Shown here: in pieces, positions 15,097-55,211 of the stretch | Layout: each line of letters begins with the position of its first letter | Numbering within the stretch: position 1 is the stretch's first letter | DNA from: Clostridia bacterium UC5.1-1E11 | Lineage (GTDB): Bacteria; Bacillota; Clostridia; Oscillospirales; Acutalibacteraceae | DNA: 64,000 nucleotides | Reading direction: 5' to 3' | NCBI GenBank assembly: GCA_001305115.1 | Contig: BCAA01000002.1 | Coordinates: 124,001-188,000, forward strand | The notes under the pieces: model-generated | Seen by the model: the letters and a program-made list of their open reading frames with translations, nothing else | Told to the model about the DNA's origin: nothing | The model's database searches: none | Program-made: the position numbers and the translations under genes

Positions 15097-17325
15097 ATGT
15101 CTGTAAAGCAGAGTTCCCGGTTCGTTTCCCTAATGCTTATATTGACCCTAGTATTCGGTACATTTTGTGGTACGGCCGCTTTTGCTGCGAGTTCCACAAC
15201 CGTGACGATCTATCATACCAACGACATCCACGGAAAAGTGAACAGCACTTATGCGGAGGACGGGACGCTCACACAGATCGGTATGGATGTATTGAAAAAC
15301 GTCAAGGCCAACACGCCGAACTCCCTGCTGATCGACGCGGGCGACGCCACCCAAGGCGTTGCCTTGGCTACCTACAGCCAAGGCGCAGACATCATCAAAC
15401 TGATGAATGCGGCTGGTTACGACGGTATGACATTGGGCAACCATGAATTCGATTATGGCCGCGATGCGGCACTGTCGAACGCCAAGTTGGCCGGTTTCCC
15501 CGTTGTGGCTGCAAATGCAATGGACAACGGCCAGACTCTTCTAAAAGGGGTCAACAGCGCCAAGACAAAGGGTTCGGGAGACCTCTATGATGAAAATGGC
15601 GGCTGGTTTATAAAAACTGTCGCAGGTAAGAAAATCGGTTTCTTTGGTATCTCTACCACAGAGACCGCTTATAAAACCAATCCGAACAACCTAAAGGGTG
15701 TAACATTCGCCGACGAAATTGCAACTGCAAAAGCCCAAGTTTCGGCCTTACAGGCGCAGAAAGCAGATGCAATCATCGGCATCATGCATGTGGGAATCGA
15801 CGGGGCCAGCAAGCCCACCAGCCATGAAATCGCGCAACAGGTGGCAGGAATTGACGCGATTATCGATGGGCATAGCCACAGCACCGAAAGCACCAAAGTC
15901 GGCAATACGGTCATCCAGCAGACGGGTACCGGCGCCGCCAACCTTGGAAAGATGGTGCTCTCCTTTGATTCGTCCGGCAATCTGACGATTACGGCGTCGA
16001 ACCTCACCCCCGCCGAGGTGGGAAAACAGTTCCAGGCAGACGCAACCGTCACCGCCCTGTATGATCGTATGGCTGAGGCTCTGGCTCCCACGCTGGAGCA
16101 GGAGGTCGGTTTTACCGATACCAGCTTGTATGGAGGCACCTACCATGGAATGAACATTTGCCGTGTGGGTGAGACAAACCTTGGTAGCCTCATTGCGGAT
16201 GCAATGATCTATGGAGGAAAAGAGCTGATTGCCGGTCAAACGCAGTATGAAAACCTGCCGATGGTCTCCCTGGAAAATGGTGGCGGCGTGCGTACGACCA
16301 TTCCCGCCGGAAAGATTACCGTCGGTGATGTCATCAATGTCCTTCCTTTTGGCAACTCCTTGTCTGTGAAGGAAGTGACGCCCGATAAACTCTATGCTGC
16401 TTTGGAAAATGGCGTAAAAAATGAGGCAAAAGATGGTGCATTTACCTCTGCCGAGGGTTCGTTCCCGCAGGTCGGCGGCATGCGCTTTACCTTTGACATC
16501 GCCAAGCCAGTCGGAAGCCGTGTGACCGAAATTGTGTTGTTGGATTCCAATGGAAAGGACACCCAAAAATTGAACCGTAACGACACAACCACAAAACTCC
16601 TACTTGTCTCCAACGATTTTGAGGTTGCCGGAGGCGATGGTTATACCATGCTGGCCGGTCTGCCCTATGTGGCGGAAGGTTCTGCGTTGGACCTTGTCAC
16701 GGCAGATTATATCCGCCAACTTACCGAGCAGGGTGGTGGAAGTTTTACCTATGCGTTACAAAAGCGCATCCGTATGGTGAACAACGGTCAGATCCCCGCC
16801 AATTATGAAACAACCATTCAAGTGATGGACGGTTCCAGCCCGCTGGGCAATGCTACCATTTCTGTACAGGTAGATGGCGGAAAATCCGTCCAGGCCAAGA
16901 CCAATTCTGTGGGCAAGATTCTGGTCAAGAACCTTTCTTCCGGTGGCCACAACATTTCTGTGACATACAATGGTAAATATGGGGATGCGTTCGTCAGTGA
17001 CGCCGCACAGCTCACAGAGGGCCAGGCGAACCTAGCCGCCGTGAATTCACCTGCTAAACAGATAAAGGCCGTTAGCGACACCACTGCTCCGGTTTCTTTG
17101 CCAAAAAATGCGGCCTACACTTTGAAAGTAACGGTACCACAGGGAACTACCCCGCATTTTTCGGTTGGCAACGGTGAAGTGCTGGGCGCAACCATCGTTC
17201 GCCGCTCCGGTAATGATTACTACTACCAGATTCACGCGGTTGGCAACCCCGGAGAAAAGACCGGCGTCTATTGTACATTCGACGGGCAGGCTGCTCAATT
17301 GCTTTGCTATGCGTCAGTCGCATAA
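15097..17325 (+). CDS. Secreted 5'-nucleotidase/2',3'-cyclic phosphodiesterase (UshA-like)
   Basis: Extracellular metallophosphatase of 742 residues that removes phosphate from nucleotides. A signal peptide (residues 1-30, cut after AFA) is followed by the calcineurin-like domain with NDIHGK, GDATQG, GNHEFDYG, MHVG and GHSHS metal ligands (about 35-260). The 5'-nucleotidase C-terminal domain holds LENGGGVR and FGNSL (about 310-540). Then come a carboxypeptidase-regulatory-like beta segment (about 570-640) and an ~85-residue C-terminal domain (about 658-742) shared with two other secreted proteins here. GAAGGAGG precedes the start. Likely supplies nucleosides and phosphate from outside the cell. 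Confidence 0.9.
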   Translation: MSVKQSSRFVSLMLILTLVFGTFCGTAAFAASSTTVTIYHTNDIHGKVNSTYAEDGTLTQIGMDVLKNVKANTPNSLLIDAGDATQGVALATYSQGADIIKLMNAAGYDGMTLGNHEFDYGRDAALSNAKLAGFPVVAANAMDNGQTLLKGVNSAKTKGSGDLYDENGGWFIKTVAGKKIGFFGISTTETAYKTNPNNLKGVTFADEIATAKAQVSALQAQKADAIIGIMHVGIDGASKPTSHEIAQQVAGIDAIIDGHSHSTESTKVGNTVIQQTGTGAANLGKMVLSFDSSGNLTITASNLTPAEVGKQFQADATVTALYDRMAEALAPTLEQEVGFTDTSLYGGTYHGMNICRVGETNLGSLIADAMIYGGKELIAGQTQYENLPMVSLENGGGVRTTIPAGKITVGDVINVLPFGNSLSVKEVTPDKLYAALENGVKNEAKDGAFTSAEGSFPQVGGMRFTFDIAKPVGSRVTEIVLLDSNGKDTQKLNRNDTTTKLLLVSNDFEVAGGDGYTMLAGLPYVAEGSALDLVTADYIRQLTEQGGGSFTYALQKRIRMVNNGQIPANYETTIQVMDGSSPLGNATISVQVDGGKSVQAKTNSVGKILVKNLSSGGHNISVTYNGKYGDAFVSDAAQLTEGQANLAAVNSPAKQIKAVSDTTAPVSLPKNAAYTLKVTVPQGTTPHFSVGNGEVLGATIVRRSGNDYYYQIHAVGNPGEKTGVYCTFDGQAAQLLCYASVA

Positions 17326-24291: not shown

Positions 24292-25479
24292 ATGAACAAC
24301 AAGTGGATGCTTCTCCCATTGGCGGCGGCCCTTCTTTTGACTTCCTGCCAAAGCGCCAGTGGCGCTGTAATCTACCACAACCAATCGCTCGCGCTTGCAG
24401 AACGGGTGGAACAAACAGTCCGCAAATCGACCGAAATTCAGCTATCTGCCAACCTGGGGACCGGCAATCCGGATGCACCCGAACAGGAGGCTTTTTCTTC
24501 GTGTCTGCACTTTGTGGAAGCCAACCGTGAACGCTACTTGCTTTATCAAGAGGCGCATCCCGATTTAAATGAATGGGATATTGTCACGCAGGTGAATATC
24601 GGTTTGGACCATCCTTATTATACAAACGTCCAGACGGTCAGTGACCCCAACAGCCTGCTGGTGTTGTGCAACAAATACTGGAAATTGCCGGATGGATACG
24701 AACCCTCGGACCTGCGCAAGCTTTCTTCCAAAGTTGCTGTGGGGTCGGCTAACCAGATGCGAGCAGAGGCGGCTGACGCATTCGAGCGACTCTGTGCGGA
24801 TGCTAAAAAAGAGGGATATACCATCTTCGCACAGTCCGCCTACCGCAGTTATTCCCGGCAAGTCTCCCTGTATAATCAATATGCTGCCCGGGATGGCATT
24901 GAAGGAGCGGACACTTACAGTTCGCGTGCAGGCCACTCCGATCATCAGACAGGTTTGGTGGTGGATGTCAAGAATGCAAGCCTGCCTTACAACCGCTTTG
25001 GTGAGACCGCAGAATATCAGTGGGCCAAGGACAACATACACAAGTACGGTTTTATCATCCACTATCCCCCTGGGAAAGAGGGAATCACCGGCTATCAGAC
25101 CGAAGAATGGCATTGGCGTTATGTGGGCCAAAAGGCTGCAACGGAAATCTACAACCTGGGGTTGACGTTGGATGAATACTGCGCAATCTTTTTGGCCAAT
25201 TCATCCGACGAGATTCCTTCCCTGCTTTCAGATACACCGGATGCCCTCACCCTTTCACAGGGAAGTTCCTATACGTTTTCTTTCCAGCCGGCCGGTGCAT
25301 TGGCTGTTCCCACTTTCACCACCGGCGATGGAACCATCGTAACTACGTCTGGTTTTCAATATCGCAGCGGCTCTTACTTGCTCTCGGTTCAGGGATTGGC
25401 CCCAGGAAGCACCAATCTATATGCTACTTTTGATGGACAAGCTCCTATCCGGCTTTGTTCCATCACGGTAAGAGCATGA
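24292..25479 (+). CDS. VanY-type D-alanyl-D-alanine carboxypeptidase lipoprotein
   Basis: Zinc peptidase that trims the terminal D-Ala of peptidoglycan stems. 395 residues with a lipoprotein signal (LLLTSC lipobox at about residues 15-20). The VanY/M15B domain (about 140-300) shows SAYRSYSRQ, SRAGHSDHQTGLVVDV with His and Asp ligands, and the EWHWRYVG motif with the third ligand. After it comes an ~83-residue C-terminal domain of the kind found in the 5'-nucleotidase and the giant esterase in this window. AGAAGG lies upstream of the chosen ATG; twelve earlier codons are open but would disrupt the lipoprotein signal. Confidence 0.87.
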   Translation: MNNKWMLLPLAAALLLTSCQSASGAVIYHNQSLALAERVEQTVRKSTEIQLSANLGTGNPDAPEQEAFSSCLHFVEANRERYLLYQEAHPDLNEWDIVTQVNIGLDHPYYTNVQTVSDPNSLLVLCNKYWKLPDGYEPSDLRKLSSKVAVGSANQMRAEAADAFERLCADAKKEGYTIFAQSAYRSYSRQVSLYNQYAARDGIEGADTYSSRAGHSDHQTGLVVDVKNASLPYNRFGETAEYQWAKDNIHKYGFIIHYPPGKEGITGYQTEEWHWRYVGQKAATEIYNLGLTLDEYCAIFLANSSDEIPSLLSDTPDALTLSQGSSYTFSFQPAGALAVPTFTTGDGTIVTTSGFQYRSGSYLLSVQGLAPGSTNLYATFDGQAPIRLCSITVRA

Positions 25480-37407: not shown

Positions 37408-39237
37408 TTAAGCAAGTGTATTGCCGGATACCTGTCCAATATAGATTTCTTCTGCCTTTCCAGTATTCTGCACTTCTACTTCTGCGGTACAATCCTTTGC
37501 CGGATCACTCAACATGCCCGCCAGGCCGCCTACATAGATCTTTCCTGCTGTACCCGTGCTTTGATTGGTTACCTTTCCCTCTACATGGGAATCGGTAGCC
37601 GTTCCAAGCAGCCATCCAGCCAAACCGCCTACAGCGATGGTCTTGCCTTCCTTCGTACTGCCTGTCATCTGAACATTTCCAGTAAATGTGCAACTGTCAA
37701 TGGTTCCAGAGTAAAGCTCTCCAACCAGACCACCCACATTTACGGTCGATTTCGCCGTTCCTATAGCCGTCACTTCTGCGGAAACAGAACAGTTCTTTGC
37801 AATTGAATCCGAACCGATGAGATCTCCTACTAAGCCGCCCAGTTTACAAGAACCTTTTGTATCGTCCCACACGATTGTACCACCATTTACCGTGCAGTTC
37901 TCTATACGGGTATTATTTGCACACCCTACCAAAGCGCCGCCAAATTCACTTGTTTTTACCTGAGGCGCTTCGATAACAATATTCTTCAACTCTGCACCAT
38001 CACAATAGGCAAACAACCCCGCATATTTCGGCGCGCCCGATTGGCCGCTCGTTTTAACGCTCCGTCCAGTTTGCTCGTCCTGCCCAATATTCAATCCTGT
38101 AATCTGATACCCACATCCATCGAAACCGCCGGTAAAGGTTTCATCCGTTTTTTCTCCGCCAATCGGTTCCCAGTTATAATCGGAAAGGTCAATATCCCCT
38201 CCAAGACGGTAGAATTGATCCAAGCCATTGCCGATACTCATCAGTTCTTCTGCGGAACGAACCCAAATAGCCTCTTCCGCAGAGCTGCCATCCCCATCTT
38301 CTTGAAGCTTCACCTCAAAGGAAACCGTCTTATCCGTCTTGGACACCACTTTCGAGGCATTCGGATCTACCAGTTCATATCCTGCGCCGAGCTTGCTCAA
38401 ATCCGGCGTCAAAGTCATCGTGGTTTCGCCCTCAGGGAACAGCACCAGATAGGAGCCGATCACCTTTCCGTCCATGACCCACTGTACCGTCGCCATATCC
38501 GCTGCGCCCGCACCTTCATCGGTCTGGAAAGCATTTACCACAACATTTCCATGGAAGTGCTTTCCCTGATATGCGTTGCCCGCGGTATCCGGCAAATAGG
38601 CACCGATCACATAGGTCTGTGTGCCGCTCGCCGCTGGAAGTACCATGGCCGGCGTATAGGGTTTTCCGTTGGAATCGGGGTTCAAGTTATCTGATACGAC
38701 TGTCCACGAGCCATTGACCTTTTCAAACAGCACCAACTTCAACACATCGGCCAAGCCGTTTGTACAAGCAACGCGCACATTCGAATGGTCCGGGCTATAA
38801 GCCTGCTTGATCGTCTCTCTGCCCTGGGCATCCTTGACAATCTCGATCTTCTTCTCCCCATTCTCCGGGCATTCTACATCTTTCATATCCAGAGCTTCCA
38901 CCGAAAGCTCTATGTAAACCGGAAGAGTCCCTGCGTTGTTAACAACCACTGGCTGGAAATAAACCGGTTTCGGATCATAGCCATCTACAGATACATTGCC
39001 ATTGCCCGCTTGATTGATCTCTGCCAGAAACTTTTCGTATTCCATGGGACGCAAATTGTCAAAGCTCAAAGGTGTCTCCGCATCTTTGCCCGGCTCTACC
39101 GTAATGTCTAAAACACCTGCTGTGAAGTCCGCATTTACCTTTTCCGTATCCGTAAACCATGCCATGGTTCCACCTGCTAGCAAGCAGAGCATCAACAGAA
39201 TGGATACTCCCGATAACAGCAACCTTCTCTTTTTCAT
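37408..39237 (-). CDS. SipW/TasA-like surface protein with GLUG repeats
   Basis: Predicted secreted protein of 609 residues. The N-terminus is a signal segment ending GGTMAWFTDTEKVNADF, the typical SipW-processed TasA/camelysin pattern. A beta-rich region follows (about 40-270), with a possible MucBP-like part, and the C-terminal third contains three to four GLUG-type repeats (GGLVGDL, GGLVGEL, GGLAGWL, GGLAGML). The start at 39237 has GAGGAGG upstream; the frame is open 39 codons earlier without a ribosome site. No LPXTG motif is seen. Role probably in surface matrix or adhesion; this is inference from GLUG and TasA-like families. Confidence 0.78.
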   Translation of the reverse strand: MKKRRLLLSGVSILLMLCLLAGGTMAWFTDTEKVNADFTAGVLDITVEPGKDAETPLSFDNLRPMEYEKFLAEINQAGNGNVSVDGYDPKPVYFQPVVVNNAGTLPVYIELSVEALDMKDVECPENGEKKIEIVKDAQGRETIKQAYSPDHSNVRVACTNGLADVLKLVLFEKVNGSWTVVSDNLNPDSNGKPYTPAMVLPAASGTQTYVIGAYLPDTAGNAYQGKHFHGNVVVNAFQTDEGAGAADMATVQWVMDGKVIGSYLVLFPEGETTMTLTPDLSKLGAGYELVDPNASKVVSKTDKTVSFEVKLQEDGDGSSAEEAIWVRSAEELMSIGNGLDQFYRLGGDIDLSDYNWEPIGGEKTDETFTGGFDGCGYQITGLNIGQDEQTGRSVKTSGQSGAPKYAGLFAYCDGAELKNIVIEAPQVKTSEFGGALVGCANNTRIENCTVNGGTIVWDDTKGSCKLGGLVGDLIGSDSIAKNCSVSAEVTAIGTAKSTVNVGGLVGELYSGTIDSCTFTGNVQMTGSTKEGKTIAVGGLAGWLLGTATDSHVEGKVTNQSTGTAGKIYVGGLAGMLSDPAKDCTAEVEVQNTGKAEEIYIGQVSGNTLA

Positions 39238-39482
39238 GTCTAGTCCTCCTCTTTCAATCATTGTTTCTACAGCAAATGGAGCTGTAGTTTGAAAAAACTG
39301 CATTACATATTCGCTAATAAATATGCATGTAAATTTATAGGGATATTTTACCATTCCATAGACAGTCTGTCAATCCTGCAAATTTTTTGTATGTTTAGGG
39401 TGTATATTTTTGTTTTATTATATAATATTTATAAAATATTTTTAAATACCACTGGAAAAACAGCGAAAAAAATAAACAAACG

Positions 39483-39527: not shown

Positions 39528-40189
39528 TTATCTGCGTTCCCGTAAAATCTTTAAGAGTTGTTTTTGACTCTTGCCTTCACACACCGCGACTATTTCATCA
39601 TTCGCATGAATCACTGTATTGCCGTTTGGAATCATCATAGACTCCCCACGAAGAATGGAGATAACCAGTGAACTATCCGGTAAATCAATATCCTTCAGCA
39701 TCACACCCTCCAAGGCTGTATCCGCTGGAAGCGTCATCGCACAGATTCCCGCGCGCCCTTTGTTCAGGGTTGCCAAAAGATGCATTTCCGCCACATCAAC
39801 TTCTTGCTCAATCAAATTTGTGATGATTTCTGTGCTGCTGACGGCAATGTCCGCCCCCAAAATACGCAACGCATCCATGTTTCTCGGGTCGTTTGCGCGG
39901 GCAATCACCTTTACTGCCTTAAACTGCCTTTTCGCCAACTGTGCTGCTACTAGATTGTCTTGGTCTTGACCGGTAACTGCGATAAAACAATCTGCGTTCT
40001 GCGTACCCGCCTCTTCCAGCGTTTCGATTTCTGTTCCATCGCCACAGATCACTTCTACGTCCAGTTCATTTGCCAATCGCATACAACGGAGTTTATTTTT
40101 TCGATCAAACGAACGTCGTGTTTGCTCTCCAACATATTCGTAGCCAGATGATACCCTAGCTTTCCGCCTCCAACGATCACAATTCGCAT
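39528..40189 (-). CDS. TrkA/KtrA-type potassium regulatory subunit, frameshifted
   Basis: Cytoplasmic RCK protein that gates a Trk/Ktr pore according to nucleotide. With the start at 40189 the N-terminus reads MRIVIVGGGKLGYHLATNML, the Rossmann NAD-binding loop. The frame then shifts at the six-T run 40096-40101 (one base lost) and continues LEEAGTQNADCFIAVTGQDQDN with a TrkA_C domain (about 140-215, GVMLKDIDLPDSSLVISI). Repaired length is about 220 residues, the normal size. It is second in a pair with another TrkA-like gene upstream. Confidence 0.87.
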
Positions 40190-40385: not shown

Positions 40386-41007
40386 TCAATCAATAATGTT
40401 GGAGAAGACCAAACGGTCATTTTCTCCGATCAGCTGATCGTGTCGCCCCGTATTGAGCACCATTGTGCCGTCCGCATGAACCAATCCAAAGAGCTGTTCC
40501 CCATCTTTTACAGGGAATTGGCTGAGCGAAAGTCCATACCAAGAGCGGTCTGCCTCCTTCACATGGAAAGCCACCGTTGCCGTTCCGATGGTCAGCTCCT
40601 TGGAATCCCAAGGCTGTGTCAATGCCGTAAACATTGCGTCTCCCGCCAATTTTGTATGGCACACCGTCTTGAGGCCAAAGCGCTTAAAGACCTTTTCGCG
40701 CGCGGGGTCCGAAATGCGGGCCACTACATTGCGCACACCAAAAACTCCTTCGCAATCTGCGAATGGTGATGTTTAAATTGTCATCCGGCGTACAGACTGC
40801 CACCGCATCGCAGCTTTCAATCCCTGCATTCTTCAACACTTTGGTATCCATTGGAAAACCGGTAACGGTCATCCCATTAAAATCCTTCTCCAACATGCGA
40901 AATGCATCCGCATCCGAATCGACTACAGCGACATCATGTCCATGGTGATCCAGCAGTTCTGCCAGACGCCTCCCCAGCCGACCACATCCAATTACTAAAA
41001 CGTTCAC
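40386..41007 (-). CDS. Second TrkA/KtrA-type subunit, frameshifted twice
   Basis: Starts at a GTG (41007) after GGGAGGAG and reads VNVLVIGCGRLGRRLAELL, the nucleotide-binding loop, then DAVAVCTPDDNLNITI. It continues as VRNVVARISDPAREKVFKRFG in another frame. The join needs two restored bases, one near 40759-40765 and one in the A-run at 40740-40744. C-terminal TrkA_C-like region ends ENDRLVFSNIID. Repaired length is about 208 residues. Pairing with the next trkA gene suggests the two RCK proteins form a hetero-oligomer or act on the same TrkH. Confidence 0.83.
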
Positions 41008-41191
41008 CCAGAATCTCCTCCCGGTATTAAAATAATCCTTTTCTTCCATACCGCGGTATAAAAGCGGATGCTTCCACACCGCCTATTCTCTGATGAAATT
41101 CTCTAAAAATGCCCCGATTGCAATGATTCCTCAAAGCGGGCCAACCAAGGCCCCCATGTTAAAACGTTTCCCCTCAAAAAGTTCCACACAA

Positions 41192-41986: not shown

Positions 41987-44900
41987 TTACGCTGCAATGG
42001 TTACTACACAGTGCTGCTGTGCGGCCTGACCTGTCAACGTGGTGTACACGCCGGTGGACTCGCCCACATCACCGATTGCCCAAATGCGGAAGTAGTAGTC
42101 ATTGCCAATCTGCGTTACAAACTGAGTCTTAAATACGCTGCCATCGCCAACGGTGAAGAGCGGCAAAATATTGCTGCCATTCACCAGTGTCATCTTGAAG
42201 CAATATGCCTGGCCCTGCTTGACTGTAAACGGAAGCGTCGTGTCAGATTTCACATATGGACCAGTGACCGTTGTACCAGTACCCGTTCCTGGTGTTGTTG
42301 GCACACCGCTTCCGTCTTCACCATAGGTACTATCCGCAGGCACATAAACAGTCGTGGAACCGCCGCCAGAAGAGGAAGAACTGCTTCTCGGAACCAACGC
42401 CTTGATGGCGTCGTTGATCGCCTGTACGGCAGCATCCACTGTGGGCTGTGTTGCTGTAGACGGCAGGGCCTTTGCTGCTGCAACCGCCTCTTGCAATTTT
42501 GCCCAAGAGTCGCTGGTATACTTGCTGGAAGAGCGGGATTCCGCATCCTGAATAGCTTCATTCAGATCTGTGAAGTCTGCATCGAAGATCTGATACGGAT
42601 AGTAGACGATGTTCGCTCTGCCGTAAGAGGCATAGCTTGCATCTCTTCTTGGATAGACGGTGGGTTCAATGCTGCCGTCGATGATGCCTTCTGCACAATT
42701 CATCAAGTCATCGAGGTATTCCTCTGTGAACGGCTCCAGGTTTTCCGCGTGGCCGGTACGTAGCATCATTTGGCGGCCGTTTACCTTATCGATAAAGTGC
42801 TGCAAAGACTTGGTGTAGGTCTGAATCGAACACATGCCGATCTGCATCCATAGGTCTCCGGAACCCACAGCGTCGCCGGTAAATACGTCCTCATCGCCAT
42901 AGAACAGAACAATGGAGCCTGCCGTGTGGCCGGGAACTGCGACAACCTCTAGGTTTTCACCGTTACCAATACTGATAAAATCACCATCTTTGACAATGGA
43001 AACTTTATCGGCATCCGGTCCCATCTTCTTAATGATTGCGTCCTTATCTCCCTCTGCGACATAAACGTTCTTCACCTGGTCCTTGCCGACAAAGTCGTCC
43101 AGACATCCGATGTGGTCACCATGGTTGTGTGTCAGAACCACATTCATGTTCGCATTTTTGTTTTCCAGGACATTGTTGACAATGTAATCAAACAGATCAC
43201 CTGCGCCCATACCGGTATCGATTACCGTGGCGCCATCCTTGTTTTCGAGCACCCAAATCTGGCCGAGTTCATAGTCGCGCACAACCGTCATACCCGGTTT
43301 GATTGTCTCCTTGGTGTACTCCAAGGACGGATTCTGTGTATGATTCTTCGAACGGCTCAACGACTGCTGGAACAGCCAGTTGTACGGTGTGCCATTGCGG
43401 TCGCTGTACACATACTTCCAAACCTGATGCGGGTCCGGAGTGGTAGAGCCGGCACTGTACTCTTCATACTTGATACACTGGCTACCAACTGCCTTCAGAG
43501 CCTCCACCACTTTGCGGGTATTTTCCACCGGAACAGTGCTGTCATCCGCATTGTGGAAGGTCCAGATTGCCATATTTTTGATCTTCTGGAACGCTTCGTT
43601 GTTGTTTGCATAGTAGCTATCGTCCACGCCACCGCACATCGGCATTGCTGCTGCAAAGATTTCCGGATGGTCGAGGATGATCTTCCAGGTGCCGTAACCG
43701 CCCATAGACAGGCCCTGGATGTAGATGCGATCTGTGTCGATGGTGGCTGCATGCTCTGCGATGAACTCATCGAGCATCTGCATGACAAGCGCTTCGTTGT
43801 CCTCCTGAACCCAGCCTTCGGCCATGCTCGGGCACTGCGGCGCCAGCACATAGCACGGGTTCATGTCCACACGGTCTGCCCAAACGACGGCGCCCTTGTT
43901 CGCGATGATATGGGACAAATTATTGTCGCCGGATTCACCCGCTCCGTGCAGGAAGATTACCACCGGATACTTGCCGTCTGCATCCTTACCAGCGGACTGG
44001 ATCGGGTCGTAGTAACGATATGGGATCGTCTTGCCCGCTTTGTTCGTAACTTCTGCCTCCTGGAAGTCGTCCACGGTCAGGTTCGTAATCGAAGTATTTG
44101 CATAGGTCCCGCCTGCTGCTACAGTCTCGCCGTTGGCCAGCTCGACATCGCGCAGCTGGGTAACCTCATAGGAAAGGTCAAACATGAAGGTCTGGAACGC
44201 ATTGTAATCGAAATAACTGGTGCCTGCGATCGTATCCGTGGGGTCGAGGGAGATCGTAACCTGATTCCCATCCACCTGCACACCGGTGATAGTCCGCATG
44301 CCGACGTTGTTAAAGGTTGGGTTATCCGCTGTCTGCTCCGCACGTACCTGATAGGTCGCTGTAGAGATAGAATCCGGATTGACATCTTCTGGGTAGGTGA
44401 CAACCGCTTCAATTACCTTCTGGCCGTCGTCCATCACCTTCGTGACGAGTTCCACCTCACAGGTGTCGGTCACCTTCGCAGGATCATAAACGATGGAAGC
44501 CGTGCCATAGGTTGCGATCTTCGCATCGCGGACATTGCCGCGGATATACTGCTCACCTTCGATAGATCCATCCACAATTCCCTTCGCACATTCGAGAATA
44601 TCGCGGACATATTGGTCGGTCATTGTGCCGCGATACTGCGTGTGGCCGCCATAAACGGTCAGGTCACGGTCGCCGATGGAATCGTTGAGGTGCTGCAGGG
44701 AGTTCACATATTCTTCAATGGAGCACATGCCGATCTGCATCCAGACATACCCGGAACCAATCGCATCACCAGTGAAGAGCTTGTCTTCGATCATGTAGCC
44801 AACGGAACCAGCCGTATGTCCCACAATATCGATGACCTGGAAATACTTGTCGCCGAACGGGATCTTATCGCCGTCGTTGACCGCTGTGAGCTTCTCAGTG

Positions 44901-47900
44901 CTGACGCCCTGACGCTCCATCATCGATTTCACTGTGGCTTCGTCCGCTGCGCCGATGTAGATATGTTCCACATCTTCTTTATCTGCGAACTGATAGGCCT
45001 GAGCAGTGTGGTCTCCGTGGCTGTGGGTCAGTAGGACATCAATCTTGGTCACTGTTTCGGGCAACATGGCCTTGAGCTCGTCATAGAGATTGCCCTGGCC
45101 CATGCCGGTATCGATCAGAACCGCGCGGTCACCATTGACCATCACATACATCGGATCGACATCGTAATCCCAAATGGCCTGTACACCGTCGCCATAGTCC
45201 TTGACCGTGTAAAGGGTCTTCGGGTTGATCGTGCCATTCTCGGTTCTGGACTTATTCTGTTCGAACAGCCAGTTATAAATTTCTTCATCTTCATACACGG
45301 CCTTCCAGCTGTGATGATGATTCGGCCAAATGGATTCCGGCAAATATTTATAATATTTTACAGAAGTGTTGCCGTGTGCCTGTAAGGCTGCAACTGCATC
45401 GTCCGAGCCCTGAACGTTGACGGACGGGTCATCCTCTGCATGGGCAACCCAAATCGGCATATTTGCCAATGCGTCAAACTTCTTGCCGCCATCTTCATAA
45501 TAGCTGGTAGAAACACGCCCGCAAATCGGGATTGCTGCTGCGAAGAGGTCCGGGTGTTCCAGGATCATTTCCCAAGTGCCCATGCCTCCCATCGACATAC
45601 CCTCGATGTAGATGCGGTCCGTATCCACCTGCGGATGTTCCTGGATAAATTCCTCCAGAATTTGAACCACCAGGTCCTGGTTTTCCTTGTTGATCCACCC
45701 AGAGGGTTCGGTCGGACACTGCGGCGCCAATACATAGACCGGATTGCGCGCAACGCGGTCCGGCTCTACCCAAGCGACGGCGCCCTTGTTTGCGATCAAG
45801 TGGGACAAATTGTTGTCGCCCTTTTCTCCGCCGCCGTGCAGGAACAGGATCAGCGGATATTTGCCATCCTCACTCACACCATTGACCTTGATCGGGTCAT
45901 AATAGCGATAGTTGAGGGATCTTCCGTTGACATTGCCGCCCGTTGCACTCTGGAAGTCATCTACAATGCGGTTGGTGATGGAGGTATCCTTGTATTTTGC
46001 GGGTTCAACAGTCCCCTCCGCTGTTTCGATTTCTCCCTTTTGTGTTACAAGATACGAAATATCGTACGGGGTCGTCAAAGAACTATAGAAGCTTGTCACG
46101 GCTGTTTCATCCTCGGGATCGAGTTCAATGGTCACAACATTGCCATTGACATCGATGTCCGTGATGGTGCGGTAACCTTCCAGATCGTTGGAACCGTCTC
46201 CATAGGTAAGGGTTGCCTTGATCTTGTAATCATCCTTGGAAACGCTGTCCTCATCGACTGCACTGTCGTAAGTCAAGTTGATTTCGACTACGCGCTGCCC
46301 ATCGTCCAGTACTTCTGTGACGATTTCTGTGGGAATGTCGCCATAGGGGATATTATACGACATCTGCAAATCGTCCTCGGTCAGGTCGAAGGAATCCAGG
46401 TTTGCCGCCATCATCAGGCGGTCGCGCGCCGGATAATCGGATTTTGTTGTGCAGACAGCCGCTACGCCGTCCTCCACGTCCTTAAAGTGCATGAATGCAC
46501 CGTTCGTATCCGAGGTACATTCTTCCCAAACCGGGAGGCCCTCCCCATTTGGATCGCCGGTCTTGACAAAGTTTGCCCAGTAGGTGGACATCATATCGCC
46601 CAACTCGTGATCCGCATCGGTCCAGTTGCGTTGGCCTTCAATGTCGTCCCGCATGGAGTTGAACATATACCACAGCTCACTGGAATGGAAGGAACCGTAG
46701 AAATCCTCATCACGGTTGCCTACGATCTCCGGATCGTGTGGCGCCAAGTCGTGATCGAAATAGTAAACATAAGCGTTGTGATCTTCGTTGTGCGTCTTGC
46801 CGTATTCAGCGGAGATCCGGTACTTCGCCAAACTGCTGTCGCTGGTGGAACGCAGGTTCATGCGATAAGCCTGTTTCTCGTTGAGCGCATTGTAGATGGA
46901 GCGATTGTACAGCTCTCCGTACTGATTTTCCATCTTTTCCTGGAATGCTTCGACATCCATCGTGCCATCCGGCGTACCGGACAGGGAGGTATACTCATCC
47001 GCCGTACCGCCGATCATGATGTCGATGCCGTCGAGCGCACCCTCAAGGGTCAAATCGATGGATTCCTCTGTAAAGACATAGTTATCCAACGTATTGTTGC
47101 CGGCCGCACTCTTGAGGGAACTGTAAACGTCATCCGCCAGGAAATCTTTCGCATCCTTTGCGCGAAGCTCTTCCAGGGTGACGCCCTCTCCGAATGCTTT
47201 TTCAATAGCGTTTTGGCAAGTTTCTTCCTTCTCCTCCAAGGATTTATAGCTGCCAGGTGCTGCATAACCGCCAAAACCACTCTGGATAATCGCACGGTTA
47301 AACAGCCCGTCCGTCATATCTGTGGAAAGCAGCGCTGTTACAGACATGGCGCCTGCGGACTGGCCGCAGATGGTGACGTTCTCTGGATCGCCACCGAATC
47401 CTGCAATATTCTCATTCACCCATTCCAGCGCCTTGATCTGATCCAATGTACCGTAGTTACCGGAAACGCCTTCCTCATTTTCTGCGCTGAGTTCCGGCAG
47501 AGCCAGGAAACCAAATACATTGACACGGTACTGGATACATACCACGATGATCCCCTGCGCTGCCAATTTGGAAGCATTGAACTCCATTTCGGATGCATGG
47601 CCATGGTCGTAACCGCCGCCATGAATCCAAACCATGACCGGAAGCTGCTCGTCTTCCGCATGTTCCGGTGCATAGACGTTCAAATACAGGCAATCTTCGC
47701 TGATTTCGGGATTGTAATCTTCGTCAAAATAGAACTCGTCGCCCCAGAATTCGCCAACGGGGTTCAAGTTTTCTGGCTGCATCGCCTGGTTGCCCCATTT
47801 GTCGCAAACGCGCACATCATCCCACGTCTCTGTGAGATCCTGCGGCGCTTTCCAGCGCAATTCTCCCACCGGGGGCTCCGCAAATGGAACACCCTTGTAG

Positions 47901-48100
47901 ACGGTGACACCCTCCGTATCGGATGGGACGCCCTGAATCTTACCATTTACATTGTCGCCACTGCGAATGGTGACAATGCCCGGTTCTTTCATCTCCGGTT
48001 CTTCCGCGCGCGAGGTTGCTGCAAATGCGCTGGTACACGTGCCCAGCAGCATTGTAAAGGTCAGAACCAATGCCCAAATAGATCGATGGATCTTTTTCAT
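41987..48100 (-). CDS. Giant secreted multi-esterase with duplicated esterase-metallohydrolase module
   Basis: 2,037 residues with a signal peptide (MKKIHRSIWALV..., cut after AFA). Domains in order: type-B carboxylesterase (about 40-580; GQSAGAMS nucleophile near 245); module 1 (about 590-1214) with an EstA-like Ig domain, an alpha/beta hydrolase (GMSMGGMG near 835) and a metallo-beta-lactamase fold (LTHSHGDHT near 1022); module 2 (about 1215-1840), the same order (GLSMGGYG near 1462, LTHNHGDHI near 1654). Then a FIVAR-like helical segment (about 1842-1900), a Ser/Gly linker and the ~85-residue C-terminal domain shared with other secreted proteins. The start is set by AAAGGAGA. Probably removes ester groups from plant or host polymers; substrates are unknown. 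Confidence 0.88.
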   Translation of the reverse strand: MKKIHRSIWALVLTFTMLLGTCTSAFAATSRAEEPEMKEPGIVTIRSGDNVNGKIQGVPSDTEGVTVYKGVPFAEPPVGELRWKAPQDLTETWDDVRVCDKWGNQAMQPENLNPVGEFWGDEFYFDEDYNPEISEDCLYLNVYAPEHAEDEQLPVMVWIHGGGYDHGHASEMEFNASKLAAQGIIVVCIQYRVNVFGFLALPELSAENEEGVSGNYGTLDQIKALEWVNENIAGFGGDPENVTICGQSAGAMSVTALLSTDMTDGLFNRAIIQSGFGGYAAPGSYKSLEEKEETCQNAIEKAFGEGVTLEELRAKDAKDFLADDVYSSLKSAAGNNTLDNYVFTEESIDLTLEGALDGIDIMIGGTADEYTSLSGTPDGTMDVEAFQEKMENQYGELYNRSIYNALNEKQAYRMNLRSTSDSSLAKYRISAEYGKTHNEDHNAYVYYFDHDLAPHDPEIVGNRDEDFYGSFHSSELWYMFNSMRDDIEGQRNWTDADHELGDMMSTYWANFVKTGDPNGEGLPVWEECTSDTNGAFMHFKDVEDGVAAVCTTKSDYPARDRLMMAANLDSFDLTEDDLQMSYNIPYGDIPTEIVTEVLDDGQRVVEINLTYDSAVDEDSVSKDDYKIKATLTYGDGSNDLEGYRTITDIDVNGNVVTIELDPEDETAVTSFYSSLTTPYDISYLVTQKGEIETAEGTVEPAKYKDTSITNRIVDDFQSATGGNVNGRSLNYRYYDPIKVNGVSEDGKYPLILFLHGGGEKGDNNLSHLIANKGAVAWVEPDRVARNPVYVLAPQCPTEPSGWINKENQDLVVQILEEFIQEHPQVDTDRIYIEGMSMGGMGTWEMILEHPDLFAAAIPICGRVSTSYYEDGGKKFDALANMPIWVAHAEDDPSVNVQGSDDAVAALQAHGNTSVKYYKYLPESIWPNHHHSWKAVYEDEEIYNWLFEQNKSRTENGTINPKTLYTVKDYGDGVQAIWDYDVDPMYVMVNGDRAVLIDTGMGQGNLYDELKAMLPETVTKIDVLLTHSHGDHTAQAYQFADKEDVEHIYIGAADEATVKSMMERQGVSTEKLTAVNDGDKIPFGDKYFQVIDIVGHTAGSVGYMIEDKLFTGDAIGSGYVWMQIGMCSIEEYVNSLQHLNDSIGDRDLTVYGGHTQYRGTMTDQYVRDILECAKGIVDGSIEGEQYIRGNVRDAKIATYGTASIVYDPAKVTDTCEVELVTKVMDDGQKVIEAVVTYPEDVNPDSISTATYQVRAEQTADNPTFNNVGMRTITGVQVDGNQVTISLDPTDTIAGTSYFDYNAFQTFMFDLSYEVTQLRDVELANGETVAAGGTYANTSITNLTVDDFQEAEVTNKAGKTIPYRYYDPIQSAGKDADGKYPVVIFLHGAGESGDNNLSHIIANKGAVVWADRVDMNPCYVLAPQCPSMAEGWVQEDNEALVMQMLDEFIAEHAATIDTDRIYIQGLSMGGYGTWKIILDHPEIFAAAMPMCGGVDDSYYANNNEAFQKIKNMAIWTFHNADDSTVPVENTRKVVEALKAVGSQCIKYEEYSAGSTTPDPHQVWKYVYSDRNGTPYNWLFQQSLSRSKNHTQNPSLEYTKETIKPGMTVVRDYELGQIWVLENKDGATVIDTGMGAGDLFDYIVNNVLENKNANMNVVLTHNHGDHIGCLDDFVGKDQVKNVYVAEGDKDAIIKKMGPDADKVSIVKDGDFISIGNGENLEVVAVPGHTAGSIVLFYGDEDVFTGDAVGSGDLWMQIGMCSIQTYTKSLQHFIDKVNGRQMMLRTGHAENLEPFTEEYLDDLMNCAEGIIDGSIEPTVYPRRDASYASYGRANIVYYPYQIFDADFTDLNEAIQDAESRSSSKYTSDSWAKLQEAVAAAKALPSTATQPTVDAAVQAINDAIKALVPRSSSSSSGGGSTTVYVPADSTYGEDGSGVPTTPGTGTGTTVTGPYVKSDTTLPFTVKQGQAYCFKMTLVNGSNILPLFTVGDGSVFKTQFVTQIGNDYYFRIWAIGDVGESTGVYTTLTGQAAQQHCVVTIAA

Positions 48101-48332
48101 TCTGCTTTTCTCTCCTTTTCCTAAAATGTAACCGTTAACTCTGGTCCGCTCGTATGTCCTGCATGGGCATCCCTCCATTCTAAAAAAATGTGTAGAAAAG
48201 AAAGCCTGCCAAAGATTTGCTTTTGACAAGCATGGGTGCGCGTATATAATGCTATCCATAAATGGCCTTTCGGCCCGATCCTTCGTCTTTCATCCAGCGA
48301 ATGACGCCGCTGTAAAACGGTACTTCTACTTT

Positions 48333-49835
48333 CTACGATGAACGTCGCTCTGCCAACCAGTGGTCTAATTGTTTTTGCTTCTCTGCAAGGATTTTGTCAA
48401 TACCCGCTGCTCTGAGTTCTTGGTTCATACGCGGCAATGTGACTGCCGGGTCGAGAGAACCACATTCCAGGGCATTACGATATTCGTCCAACACCGCATT
48501 GCAGGCGCTGACCTCTCCAAGCACCTCGGTGTTATCCCATACAAATCCGCGTGCTGGGGATGGGTGTGCCTCTTGATTAAAGGTCTCCACCTGCTGCCAA
48601 ACATCCGGCGGATCTTTCTGCCATACATGGGCGATTAACTCATTAGGCCATGACCAAATAATAAACCCATAGGGTACATTGTCACTGTCAATCCCCTTTG
48701 GAAATCCGACAATATTTTGCTCATGGTCCAGTATTTGATAGGTTTTCCCCTCAATTCCATAGGTGAGCAGGTTTGCCAGTTCTGGATTGGTGTACATCTC
48801 GTTGAGTACCCGCATGGCTTTGTCGGGCTGCTCGCTGGTATGACCGATGCTCCACATCGAAGAAACCAATGTGGTCTCGCTATACGGCGGGACAATTGAA
48901 AAAATCCCAATTTCATATCCCACACTCCGGATGACCTCACCATATTTATCGGGTTTTACATTGGCAAAGTGCCCAAATCCCTTTCCTGCCCGCATCAGTG
49001 AAAACTCGTTGTCCGTATTGGACGCGCCGTCCGGCATCAGCAGACCTTTCTGCGCCCAATCCCACTGGAGCTCCACCATCTGCCGGTAGGAATCCGTCTC
49101 AAACAGATTGACAACCTCCGTGGAATCCGTAAAGCTGTTCTCCAGCACACCTAAGTCGTCTCCCAACCGGTCATATGGCATTGGGAGCCTTGCCAAGCCA
49201 CTGCTGGTAACGACCGGATACATGTCCGGATATGCATCCCGTACTTTTAGCAGAAGATCTTCAAGATCCTGTATGGTCTGCAAATCCTCTTCCTGATACC
49301 CCAACGCCTCTGCTAAATCTTTCCGGTAAACAAACCCGCGCCCGGTCGCTTTCTCCCGGTTGATCGGTACGCCACAGATCATTCCATTGAACGTGACGCA
49401 CTGCCAGTCCTCCGGTGAAATGTCCTCTTGAATCTCCGGGCCACACAAAGACAGATAATCGTTTAAGGGGGTAACCAGGCCATAGTTCACCATAACAGCC
49501 ACGCCCGTTTCAAAAGTCGGGAAAAGGTCCACTTTTTTTCCGGTGGAAACCGCCAGTTTCACCTGTTGGAGGCAATTTTCCTTTGTCCCCTGATAGGTCA
49601 AACGGATCTTGGCCTCGCAAGATTCTTGAAGGATGGCGTTTGCACGCTCTTCGATTTCTTTTCTCAGCGGTTCAGAAGCCCTTCCCAACGCATACACATC
49701 CACCGTATAAAAATCCTCAGAAGAACTCTGCGAAGAAGGTGTTTGCTCTGTCCCAGTTGTTCCATTTGTACAGGCTGTCAAATTCCACAGTAGAACTCCC
49801 GCCAGCAACATCGCCAGCCATCCTGTCCGCTTCAT
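48333..49835 (-). CDS. Extracellular solute-binding lipoprotein (ABC sugar-binding type)
   Basis: 500-residue lipoprotein with lipobox LWNLTAC (about residues 17-23), a Ser/Thr-rich linker and a periplasmic-binding-protein fold resembling family-1 solute binders with a DUF3502-like C-terminus (PSPARGFVWD). It would bind an oligosaccharide outside the cell. The start at 49835 is chosen because it gives the lipoprotein signal; the frame is open 82 codons further upstream. No permease or ATPase gene is adjacent, so it either uses permeases elsewhere or serves as a sensor. The promoter region has direct repeats suited to an AraC-type activator. Confidence 0.82.
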   Translation of the reverse strand: MKRTGWLAMLLAGVLLWNLTACTNGTTGTEQTPSSQSSSEDFYTVDVYALGRASEPLRKEIEERANAILQESCEAKIRLTYQGTKENCLQQVKLAVSTGKKVDLFPTFETGVAVMVNYGLVTPLNDYLSLCGPEIQEDISPEDWQCVTFNGMICGVPINREKATGRGFVYRKDLAEALGYQEEDLQTIQDLEDLLLKVRDAYPDMYPVVTSSGLARLPMPYDRLGDDLGVLENSFTDSTEVVNLFETDSYRQMVELQWDWAQKGLLMPDGASNTDNEFSLMRAGKGFGHFANVKPDKYGEVIRSVGYEIGIFSIVPPYSETTLVSSMWSIGHTSEQPDKAMRVLNEMYTNPELANLLTYGIEGKTYQILDHEQNIVGFPKGIDSDNVPYGFIIWSWPNELIAHVWQKDPPDVWQQVETFNQEAHPSPARGFVWDNTEVLGEVSACNAVLDEYRNALECGSLDPAVTLPRMNQELRAAGIDKILAEKQKQLDHWLAERRSS

Positions 49836-49976
49836 GATTGGCCCCCTTGCTCTCTTTTTATCGGGGCAACTCTCCAAAATACTATCGGAATTCCTTTTTG
49901 AAGCCTCGCAAGGTTTCAGCCGTTTGTTTTGCAATCCCCCTTTTTTCATTTGATCTTTTTGATTCATTGTATTTAT

Positions 49977-50116
49977 ATTATACTCGGTTGATTTTTTGAT
50001 TTCTGCCAAAATCCTGACCTCCACTATCAAAAAACTGACAACTTTTCTATAATTTTCTGCCTTCGAACCATTCATTATCAAAAATCCGACCTCGTCTTAT
50101 CACAAATCAGACCTAC
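49977..50116 (-). promoter_or_regulatory. Promoter with four direct repeats (candidate AraC-type sites)
   Basis: A minus-strand TATAAT (49977-49982) lacks a good -35 box. Directly upstream lie four related 18-base repeats of the form TATCAAAAATCCGACCTC, at about 50004-50021, 50025-50042, 50076-50093 and 50098-50115. Within each pair they are 21-22 bases apart, two helical turns, as for AraC-family dimers. Confidence 0.55.
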
Positions 50117-54210: not shown

Positions 54211-55211
54211 CTACAAGCGCCATCTTACAATTTTATTCGCCCTTTTTGCTTTCCATAAACTTCGCGTAGCTGCGCGGAGTTCCTTGGAAGTTTCCTCTGG
54301 GCAGGTCGGGTTGCAGTGAGCCCATGCGCCCGTCTCGCTGGAAGCGTTAAACTTCTGCTTGTCAGCACTGCGCATTGGTGGGAAGAACTCAATGTGGAAA
54401 TGGAAATCCTTGGAGTAATCGCCCGAATTGACCGGCGCATTGTGCATGCACATCATATAGGGGAAACGGTAGTCAAATAGGCTGTCGAGCATCCCCACGG
54501 TGTCGCGGATAGTAACACCAAGGCTGTACTTTTCTTCCTCCGTAAGGTCTGTAATATACTGCACATGGCGGTTTGCCATGATATAGACGCCATAGGGATA
54601 TTCGCAATAGAACGGGAGATAAACCGTGAAGTGCTCATTCTGGAAGATGATGCGCTTTTCTGCCTCGAGTTCATGTTTCAACGTATCACAGAACAGGCAG
54701 TTGCCGGTTTTTCCAAATATTCCTTTGCGGACGCGGTTTCCAGCGCAAGCTTCTTCGGAATAAAAGAATAACCATACATCTGGCCGTGCGGATGGGGCAT
54801 GGTCACACCCACCACTTCGCCGCGATTTTCAAAGGGGAACACATATTTGATCTTTTCGTCGGAACGCATTACATTGAACCGTTCACACCACAGGTCCACC
54901 AGCTTCTTCATGTGGTCATAGGACAGCTCCGGCATGGTCACCGTATGGCCGGGAGAATACAGGATGACTTCACACTTGCCGTAGGACGGTTTTACCTTGA
55001 AAAAGTCGTTTGCAATCCCCTCGTCCGGCTCCGGCGGATTTTGGGAAAGCGCCGGGAAGTCGTTGTCGTACTCCAACACTTCATAATCCGGTACATTGCC
55101 AAAGCTGGGGCAAAACGGGCAGTAGTCCTTGGGCATCTGGGGGCGTCCCTGCCGGTTCGACGCAATCATCACCCAGTCCTGAATCAACGGATGCCATCTC
55201 AATTCTGCCAT
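54211..55211 (-). CDS. galT: Galactose-1-phosphate uridylyltransferase, frameshifted
   Basis: Swaps UMP between UDP-glucose and galactose 1-phosphate. The N-terminal frame (54678-55211) has LRWHPLIQDWVMIASNRQGRPQ, the zinc CPFCP and the active-site GVTMPHPHGQ. The second frame (54211-54681) has the zinc/substrate segment FHFHIEFFPP near its end. They join as YLEKTGNCLFCDTLKHE if one base is added to the five-T run at 54708-54712. Repaired length is about 333 residues, normal for the class-I enzyme. It lies between galK and galE in the same direction. Confidence 0.93.

Follow-up and report, generated by a model that had tools for sequence, protein, structure and literature searches.

Architecture of a protein with five hydrolase domains

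Why does a single bacterial gene carry five hydrolase domains, and on what kind of compound might its product act? Within the stretch of DNA that was analysed (64,000 nucleotides, here called the window), the open reading frame listing contains an uninterrupted frame of 2,037 amino acids that runs on the minus strand from 48100 to 41987. Its ATG is preceded by the ribosome-binding-like sequence AAAGGAGAG. From the N terminus, the protein consists of a signal-peptide-like start, a type-B carboxylesterase, two modules, a FIVAR domain, a linker, and an Ig-like C-terminal domain. Each module joins an EstA-type Ig-like domain, a serine esterase, and a metallo-beta-lactamase-fold (MBL) hydrolase. 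The features are as follows.

41987 to 48100, minus strand: whole coding sequence, 2,037 amino acids plus stop; orthologues in the other three genomes of the genus examined
48017 to 48100, minus strand: signal-peptide-like N terminus, residues 1 to 28, recognized by eye; hydrophobic window at residues 8 to 28
46478 to 47977, minus strand: type-B carboxylesterase (PF00135), residues 42 to 541, S248/E369/H472; Pfam and alignment
45968 to 46327, minus strand: EstA-type Ig-like domain of module 1; Pfam and alignment
45227 to 45967, minus strand: EstA-type serine esterase of module 1, S836/D891/H929; Pfam and alignment
44483 to 45217, minus strand: MBL-fold hydrolase of module 1, seven metal ligands; Pfam and alignment
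44117 to 44455, minus strand: EstA-type Ig-like domain of module 2; Pfam and alignment
43343 to 44089, minus strand: EstA-type serine esterase of module 2, S1465/D1520/H1558; Pfam and alignment
42605 to 43327, minus strand: MBL-fold hydrolase of module 2, seven metal ligands; Pfam and alignment
42395 to 42571, minus strand: FIVAR domain; Pfam
42269 to 42388, minus strand: Ser/Gly/Thr-rich linker, dN/dS of 0.37 against An250; sequence and codon comparison
41990 to 42265, minus strand: C-terminal domain of Ig-like type, outside any Pfam family; 35 stretches or more of its own genome carry it, this copy included
48333 to 50081, minus strand: upstream ABC-type solute-binding protein (SBP_bac_1, DUF3502), a possible partner; profile match and shared position

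The original prediction, made from the sequence alone, had described five hydrolase domains in one protein, with two copies of an esterase-MBL module of about 620 residues, and had proposed a domain architecture search. Pfam confirmed the carboxylesterase (COesterase, 344.6 bits) and both modules, with two stretches each for Lactamase_B, alpha/beta-hydrolase (Peptidase_S9, Esterase), and EstA_Ig_like, as well as one for FIVAR; no carbohydrate-binding module was recognized by Pfam. The two modules are 45 to 47% identical to each other (45% over 613 columns, E 0.0). The minus-strand orientation, the Ig-like domain in each module, and the FIVAR and Ig-like C terminus go beyond that prediction.

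Catalytic sites and family membership

All catalytic residues expected for the five domains are present in native numbering, in agreement with the earlier statement that the motifs are intact. Alignment to 1qe3 places the carboxylesterase triad at S248, E369, and H472, and alignments to 3doh place those of the esterases at S836/D891/H929 in module 1 and S1465/D1520/H1558 in module 2. Both MBL domains carry the seven-ligand set HHDHHDH (H1026, H1028, D1030, H1031, H1095, D1112, and H1153 in the first; H1658, H1660, D1662, H1663, H1725, D1743, and H1784 in the second). Together with these residues, the profile scores assign the domains to the type-B carboxylesterases (PF00135, 344.6 bits against a cut-off of 27), the EstA-type Ig-esterases (PF18435, 107.4 against 26.7, in two stretches), and the MBL superfamily (PF00753, 109.5 against 22.7).

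Two narrower assignments were rejected on score. The model for extracellular short-chain PHA depolymerase (NF050058) reached 115.9 bits, under its curated cut-off of 150, and that for hydroxyacylglutathione hydrolase GloB (TIGR03413) 94 bits against 200.8. By sequence, the nearest enzymes are p-nitrobenzyl-type and fumonisin esterases and Thermotoga maritima EstA, none of them a dedicated glycan esterase. CE1/feruloyl esterase structures appear among the Foldseek matches only from rank 7 on, and ferulic acid esterase 7xrt, found by phmmer (E 1.1e-4 and 2.1e-5), is a weaker match than EstA.

Since the carboxylesterase scores near p-nitrobenzyl esterase and fumonisin B1 esterase, and the MBL domains are weakly similar to class B beta-lactamase models, the carboxylesterase and MBL might detoxify a xenobiotic, a mycotoxin, or an antibiotic. 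We regard this role as quite improbable: a true beta-lactamase is rejected because the class B models listed stay below their curated cut-offs (core, 81.1 against 100; B3, 38.4 against 240; B1, 37.3 against 200), and the C-terminal architecture described below is also found in glycosidases.

Conservation and module history in the genus

The esterase-MBL protein was found in all four Anaeromassilibacillus genomes examined, two of which have three modules and hence seven hydrolases. The esterase triad and all seven MBL ligands are kept in each of the 10 aligned genus modules. Against An250, dN/dS lies between 0.04 and 0.13 across the seven Ig and enzyme domains (0.128 and 0.048 for the two EstA-type esterases) and reaches 0.37 in the linker; these values are approximate because dS is near saturation. 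The enzyme domains are under purifying selection.

Frameshifts were observed in the galT-like and trkA-like genes of the window, which would fit an assembly or annotation artefact that fused separate genes. Nevertheless, the chance of such an artefact is practically negligible given the codon-level constraint, and a chimeric assembly is refuted by orthologues with the same domain order in three named genomes (Pfam was run on two).

When compared in windows along its length, module 1 looks like a chimera of modules 1 and 2 of the three-module relatives. Its first ~240 residues are closer to module 1 of senegalensis (60 to 80%) than to module 2 (34 to 62%), apart from residues 121 to 180, to which both are almost equally near; in most windows past ~240 it is closer to module 2 of D33t1. 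Three observations argue against the chimera reading. At residues 521 to 580, the relatives' module 1 is slightly closer (90% against 83 to 87%); at residues 401 to 500, the values for module 2 of senegalensis itself (50 and 47%) are lower than those for module 1 (65 and 53%); and the first module of An250 tracks module 1 further along. These conflicting stretches imply that the breaks do not all lie at the same place, and gene conversion may contribute to the pattern. Given the chimera-like module 1, two modules probably arose from three, and loss from a three-module state would be the simplest reading of the module history.

Esterase-MBL fusions outside the genus

We counted a fusion where a listed row had a single open frame over the esterase and MBL positions. 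With the own genus included each time and with overlapping genome sets, such fusions occur in at least 8 of 300 genomes of the family, 4 of 394 of the order, 4 of 391 of the class, and 3 of 398 of the phylum (the last three likewise being minimum counts). The pairing is indeed unusual, as had been supposed. Among the matches listed, one distant Bacillota genome has the full Ig-esterase-MBL module, and a few other genomes have the fusion without the Ig-like domain.

Four genomes (G976, G241, G278, and G389) encode pseudo-esterase-MBL fusions in which GxSxG and the catalytic-histidine position are lost and the seven ligands are kept; the alignments of these pseudo-esterases are weak, and that of G241 retains a serine near the lost motif. 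MBL function therefore needs no working esterase there. The triad is intact in G792, where a single esterase accompanies two MBL domains, and in other fusions of G278 and G976 and in that of G1393.

It had been suggested that the MBL domain may act on the product of the esterase, with a lactone, a sulfate ester, or a phenolic ester as candidates. As stated, this is unsupported, and the fusions with a lost esterase motif speak against a strict dependence. Such a sequential scheme, in which the fused MBL would open or cleave whatever the esterase frees, for instance a sugar lactone or the lactone of a hydroxy acid, seems to us rather unlikely, in spite of the recurrence of the fusion in several architectures (the genus, G792, G278, G976, and G1393) and the retention of both sites throughout the aligned genus modules. 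The setting of stand-alone relatives of the fused MBL is also compatible with it: in G852 the gene adjoins a Gfo/Idh/MocA oxidoreductase and a xylose-isomerase-like gene, the same setting was recognized by eye in G946, and sugar lactones could presumably arise there. Apart from the pseudo-esterases, the single esterase in G792 means that one-to-one coupling is not general, and the AlphaFold model of the module (mean pLDDT of 72, pTM of 0.55) is too weak for domain geometry and so for judging whether the active sites face each other.

The same pseudo-esterase fusions would suit an MBL acting as the main enzyme, with the EstA-type part serving mainly as a binding scaffold. This is improbable for the protein studied here, whose esterases have low dN/dS and belong to a set of genus modules with fully intact triads, as in G792 and the fusions of G278, G976, and G1393. 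A broader proposal, which we consider doubtful, is that the pair forms a distinct, reusable unit of a serine esterase and a two-metal hydrolase for one ester-decorated carbohydrate, exported and used two or three times per protein, but signal-less in relatives, in which the esterase could decay to a binding domain; the unit might remove an acyl group and then open a lactone or cyclic ester. If the activities are coupled, an MBL branch hitherto without a substrate named here would gain one, and the pair would be a two-step de-esterification catalyst of natural origin. Comparison with the pseudo-esterase fusions offers a way to test the coupling.

The MBL tree was built from 38 rows, excluding L125 (a split hit) and L140 (cut by a contig end); all seven ligands are present in 37 of them, L138 being without one. 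L132, tagged as stand-alone, has ~168 residues of unassigned sequence before its MBL. From the esterase set, domain hits above an i-E of 1e-4 were removed (one, the second hit of G828). The trees were midpoint-rooted and are compatible with one or several fusion events. A virus or plasmid origin was rejected: viral contigs, scanned with two peptide patterns only, gave no relative, and none of 122 matching plasmid records covered more than 80% of the query, the 15 of these matches that are listed covering 57%, the Ig-esterase part.

Export, C-terminal domain, and gene neighbourhood

The protein begins with MKKIHRS, followed by a hydrophobic stretch and AFA-A, which by eye resembles a signal peptide. 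On this basis and on that of the hydrophobic window at residues 8 to 28, the earlier description of the protein as secreted stands as probable export. Neither an LPXTG-type motif nor a C-terminal hydrophobic stretch was found in the 2,037 residues, which counts against attachment to the surface.

The C-terminal Ig-like domain recurs in at least 35 stretches of its own genome, the window copy included, many of them in giant glycosidases. This count derives from 35 scored of 117 candidates, and some are short frames at contig ends. No Pfam family matched at cut-off (AlphaC_N, 15.2 bits against 25). Structure searches returned a general Ig-like fold, with the S-layer protein SbsC on top (Z of 10.4, rmsd of 5.7, 94 aligned; Foldseek E 1.7e-4), a fold likeness that carries no function. 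The Pfam scan covered 13 of 35 other tail-bearing frames listed, and a few of the 35 match in the FIVAR part only. Six of the 13 belong to a glycosidase family (two GH2-type, two GH3, one GH97, and one alpha-galactosidase); the others comprise one MGH1-like/trehalase glycosidase match, two 5'-nucleotidases, one C1 peptidase, and three without a catalytic family. In this gut-type genome, the protein points to a secretome in which a C-terminal domain outside Pfam occurs at least 35 times.

The neighbours in the window include galE, a galactokinase-like gene, and an MglB-like gene, the last two scoring under curated cut-offs. In An250, senegalensis, and D33t1, too, the neighbour on the upstream side is a homologue of the solute-binding protein. 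In senegalensis, the frame upstream of it resembles an AraC-type response regulator and not galactose genes; therefore, the galactose setting is not common to all species.

For the protein as a whole, we consider it an even call whether it is an exported multi-catalytic enzyme of Anaeromassilibacillus that de-esterifies glycans, one of many long secreted-type proteins with a FIVAR-linker-Ig-like tail. Its signal peptide would export it, and the C-terminal part would keep it on the cell surface or close to it. The two EstA-type esterases, together with the type-B carboxylesterase, would take acyl or aryl ester groups off glycans or glycan-bound phenolics. Each MBL, with its full two-metal site, might hydrolyse a second bond of related chemistry, be it an ester, a lactone, or a thioester, in the same substrate set. 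Repetition of the module would raise catalytic density, and the freed sugars would be taken up, possibly via the neighbouring solute-binding protein. The complete and conserved catalytic residues, the low dN/dS, the tail-sharing glycosidases, an Ig-esterase in a cohesin/dockerin protein, and the galactose-type neighbours speak for glycan de-esterification. Against it stand the nearest enzymes, which are not glycan esterases, the lack of a recognized carbohydrate-binding module, and the 6 of 13 tail-bearing frames that are not glycosidases.

Comparison with known systems

The closest counterpart of the half-modules is T. maritima EstA (3doh), the top Foldseek match (E 6.7e-31). It likewise combines an Ig-like N-terminal domain with an alpha/beta-hydrolase, and each half-module aligns to it over nearly the whole length (E 4.6e-59 and 1.1e-56), but its chain stops where the MBL starts in the module, and it has no MBL, carboxylesterase, or repetition. 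p-Nitrobenzyl esterase (1qe3) and fumonisin B1 esterase (8s6d) share the PF00135 fold and the Ser-Glu-His triad; however, they are stand-alone chains, whereas the carboxylesterase here shares its chain with four other hydrolase domains. Glyoxalase II/GloB-like MBL proteins (6rz0, 2qed) and other MBL enzymes have the same two-metal site of HxHxDH, His, Asp, and His. Unlike GloB, the MBL of the esterase-MBL protein is part of an exported-type chain, is fused to an esterase, and scores 94 against the cut-off of 200.8. A cohesin/dockerin protein of another family (G1384, the one scanned with Pfam; a near twin lies in G1303) has the same kind of Ig-esterase in a large protein with FIVAR and, by eye, a glycosidase-like region without a Pfam name, but it contains cohesin and dockerin and no MBL. 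Each part comes from a known family, but limited literal term searches of open-access full text turned up no account of a serine esterase and an MBL paired in tandem in an exported protein.

Domain layout and catalytic residues

The 2,037-residue protein is encoded by a single gene, whose ATG is preceded by AAAGGAGAG.

48100 (start codon) to 41987 (end of stop codon), minus strand: single gene, 2,037 residues

An alternative longer frame starts at 48259; the signal-peptide-like sequence that begins with the 48100 ATG is common to the orthologues. The Pfam domains (one COesterase, two EstA_Ig_like, two alpha/beta-hydrolase esterase regions, two Lactamase_B, and one FIVAR) bear out the five hydrolases of the original prediction. 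Its repeat of approximately 620 residues was also recovered, modules 1 and 2 being 45% identical over 613 columns. That prediction did not include the FIVAR domain, the linker, the C-terminal domain, or the Ig-like domain that each module carries.

Alignment to p-nitrobenzyl esterase (1qe3) placed the carboxylesterase triad at S248/E369/H472, and alignment to the EstA chain 3doh placed the module esterase triads at S836/D891/H929 and S1465/D1520/H1558. The seven-ligand metal set is complete in both metallo-beta-lactamase-fold (MBL) domains. The catalytic and ligand roles of these residues are well established. Triad and ligand columns were invariant in an alignment of 10 modules of the genus, to which the window and An250 contributed two modules apiece and senegalensis and D33t1 three apiece. 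Window modules 1 and 2 share only 47% identity. Comparison with the An250 gene yielded dN/dS values that are rough because dS is near saturation: 0.046 for the carboxylesterase; 0.122, 0.128, and 0.062 for Ig1, Est1, and MBL1; 0.058, 0.048, and 0.038 for Ig2, Est2, and MBL2; and 0.121, 0.37, and 0.09 for FIVAR, linker, and tail, respectively.

Module number within the genus

The closest named relatives are Anaeromassilibacillus sp. An250, A. senegalensis mt9, and Clostridium sp. D33t1_170424_F3 (Acutalibacteraceae, Clostridia, Bacillota), and the protein is present in all four genus genomes examined. It has two modules in the window (2,037 aa) and An250 (2,031 aa) and three in senegalensis (2,660 aa; domains by Pfam) and D33t1 (2,654 aa). 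Regarding sliding identity, the Ig domain of window module 1 tracks module 1 of the three-module proteins (79% versus 40% over residues 1 to 60), whereas most of its second half is nearer to D33t1 module 2 (88% versus 63% at 361 to 420; 94% versus 76% for module 1 at 601 to 625). As exceptions, residues 521 to 580 slightly favor module 1, and over 401 to 500 senegalensis module 2 is less similar to window module 1 than module 1 is. The Ig regions of modules 1 and 2 are already approximately 60% different, and the duplication would therefore be older than the split. On the simplest reading of these sequences, the two-module gene would have arisen from three modules through recombination.

Esterase-MBL fusions outside the genus

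A listed row was counted as a fusion when a single open frame covered both esterase and MBL positions; the genome sets overlap. Such fusions occurred in at least 8 of 300 family genomes (the four genus members, G278, G976, G241, and G389), at least 4 of 394 order genomes, at least 4 of 391 class genomes, and at least 3 of 398 phylum genomes. Among the matches listed, the complete Ig-esterase-MBL module was found beyond the genus only in G792, where a protein of 916 aa combines a single esterase with two MBL domains and is encoded next to a GH1-like gene; no full-length match at E 1e-25 was obtained in the nine other genomes of its order. Fusions of approximately 500 aa in G278, G976, and G1393 lack the Ig domain and an obvious signal peptide. 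G976, G241, G278, and G389 also carry fusions with a degenerate alpha/beta-hydrolase half (L068, L069, L070, and L071); neither GxSxG nor the histidine position is present in this N-terminal pseudo-esterase, and the MBL half retains all ligands.

The suggestion that the MBL acts on the product of its fused esterase may hold, as the two are physically paired and were duplicated together. A strict one-to-one relay is, however, disfavored by the pseudo-esterase fusions and by G792, whose protein has one esterase for two MBL domains.

In the MBL tree, the 10 genus domains form a single clade (100/100). A supported split (95/84) has a 25-row side holding the fused MBLs plus some stand-alone MBLs. 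The fusion could have arisen once, with the esterase lost later, or more than once. One fused-branch MBL (L132, G906:C119:3200-5000) is preceded by approximately 168 residues. Two separate partial matches to the query MBL parts fall within one frame of 692 aa (G074:C103:11858-12673, minus strand), possibly another MBL fusion.

C-terminal tail domain

The protein ends in an Ig-like domain that recurs in the window:

41990-42265, minus strand: tail domain of approximately 90 residues, Ig-like, without a Pfam family
17053-17322, plus strand: the same domain
25207-25476, plus strand: the same domain

At least 35 stretches were found in the source genome, the studied protein counted, and at least 35 in D33t1 (G001), both among the 8 of 150 family genomes with the tail; G028 and G889 have tandem copies. 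The structure model is confident (pLDDT, 88.9; pTM, 0.76) and Ig-like, with the S-layer protein SbsC as the nearest structure. A Pfam scan took in 13 other tail-bearing frames of the source genome, of 35 others listed. Six contained glycosidase families (L079, L080, L083, L088, L089, and L099), two a 5'-nucleotidase (window 15097-17325 and L096), one an MGH1-like/trehalase match (L084), and one both a C1 peptidase and a lectin-like domain (L091); three had no catalytic family by Pfam (L082, L092, and L098). A tail-bearing 1,360-aa D33t1 protein (L074, G001:C33, 1129-5208, plus strand) carries an esterase of EstA-like type, and its N-terminal domains look repeated by eye; some of its sequence reads N.

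Gene neighborhood

An ABC solute-binding protein lies upstream (SBP_bac_1 with DUF3502 in the window); its counterparts, likewise upstream neighbors of the orthologues, are 76% (An250), 63% (D33t1), and 62% (senegalensis) identical to the window copy. Further window neighbors are dapA, galE, a galT-like gene that was named by eye and lies in two frames, two genes scoring under their curated cutoffs (one galactokinase-like, one for an MglB-like protein), and a sensor-kinase/AraC-regulator-like pair. In senegalensis, an AraC-type response regulator-like frame lies upstream of the solute-binding protein. The galT-like gene (54211-55211, minus strand) occupies two overlapping frames, and the An250 part compared is one continuous frame. 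Of two genes named trkA-like by eye, the first (40386-41079, minus strand) is split over two frames where the senegalensis and An250 copies are continuous; the second, as listed (39528-40082), starts later than its An250 copy. At 37408-39354 (minus strand), a SipW/camelysin-like N terminus is fused, by eye, to GLUG-like repeats.

Proposed function and relation to known families

The residues of the domains are intact, and the domains are repeated and conserved. The protein would be exported and retained at the surface, where its enzyme domains may act on glycan esters with the five catalytic sites co-operating. Ester removal from glycans is the likeliest job, because glycosidases share the tail and a related Ig-esterase occurs in a cohesin/dockerin protein elsewhere.

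The protein scored below the curated cutoffs for GloB, class B beta-lactamase, and PHA depolymerase. No description of the domain order and repetition was found in the open-access literature searched. Within that literature, the protein thus appears to present known families in an undescribed order and repetition; judged by sequence, each domain clearly falls within a known family, namely carboxylesterase PF00135, the EstA-type esterases, and the MBL superfamily.
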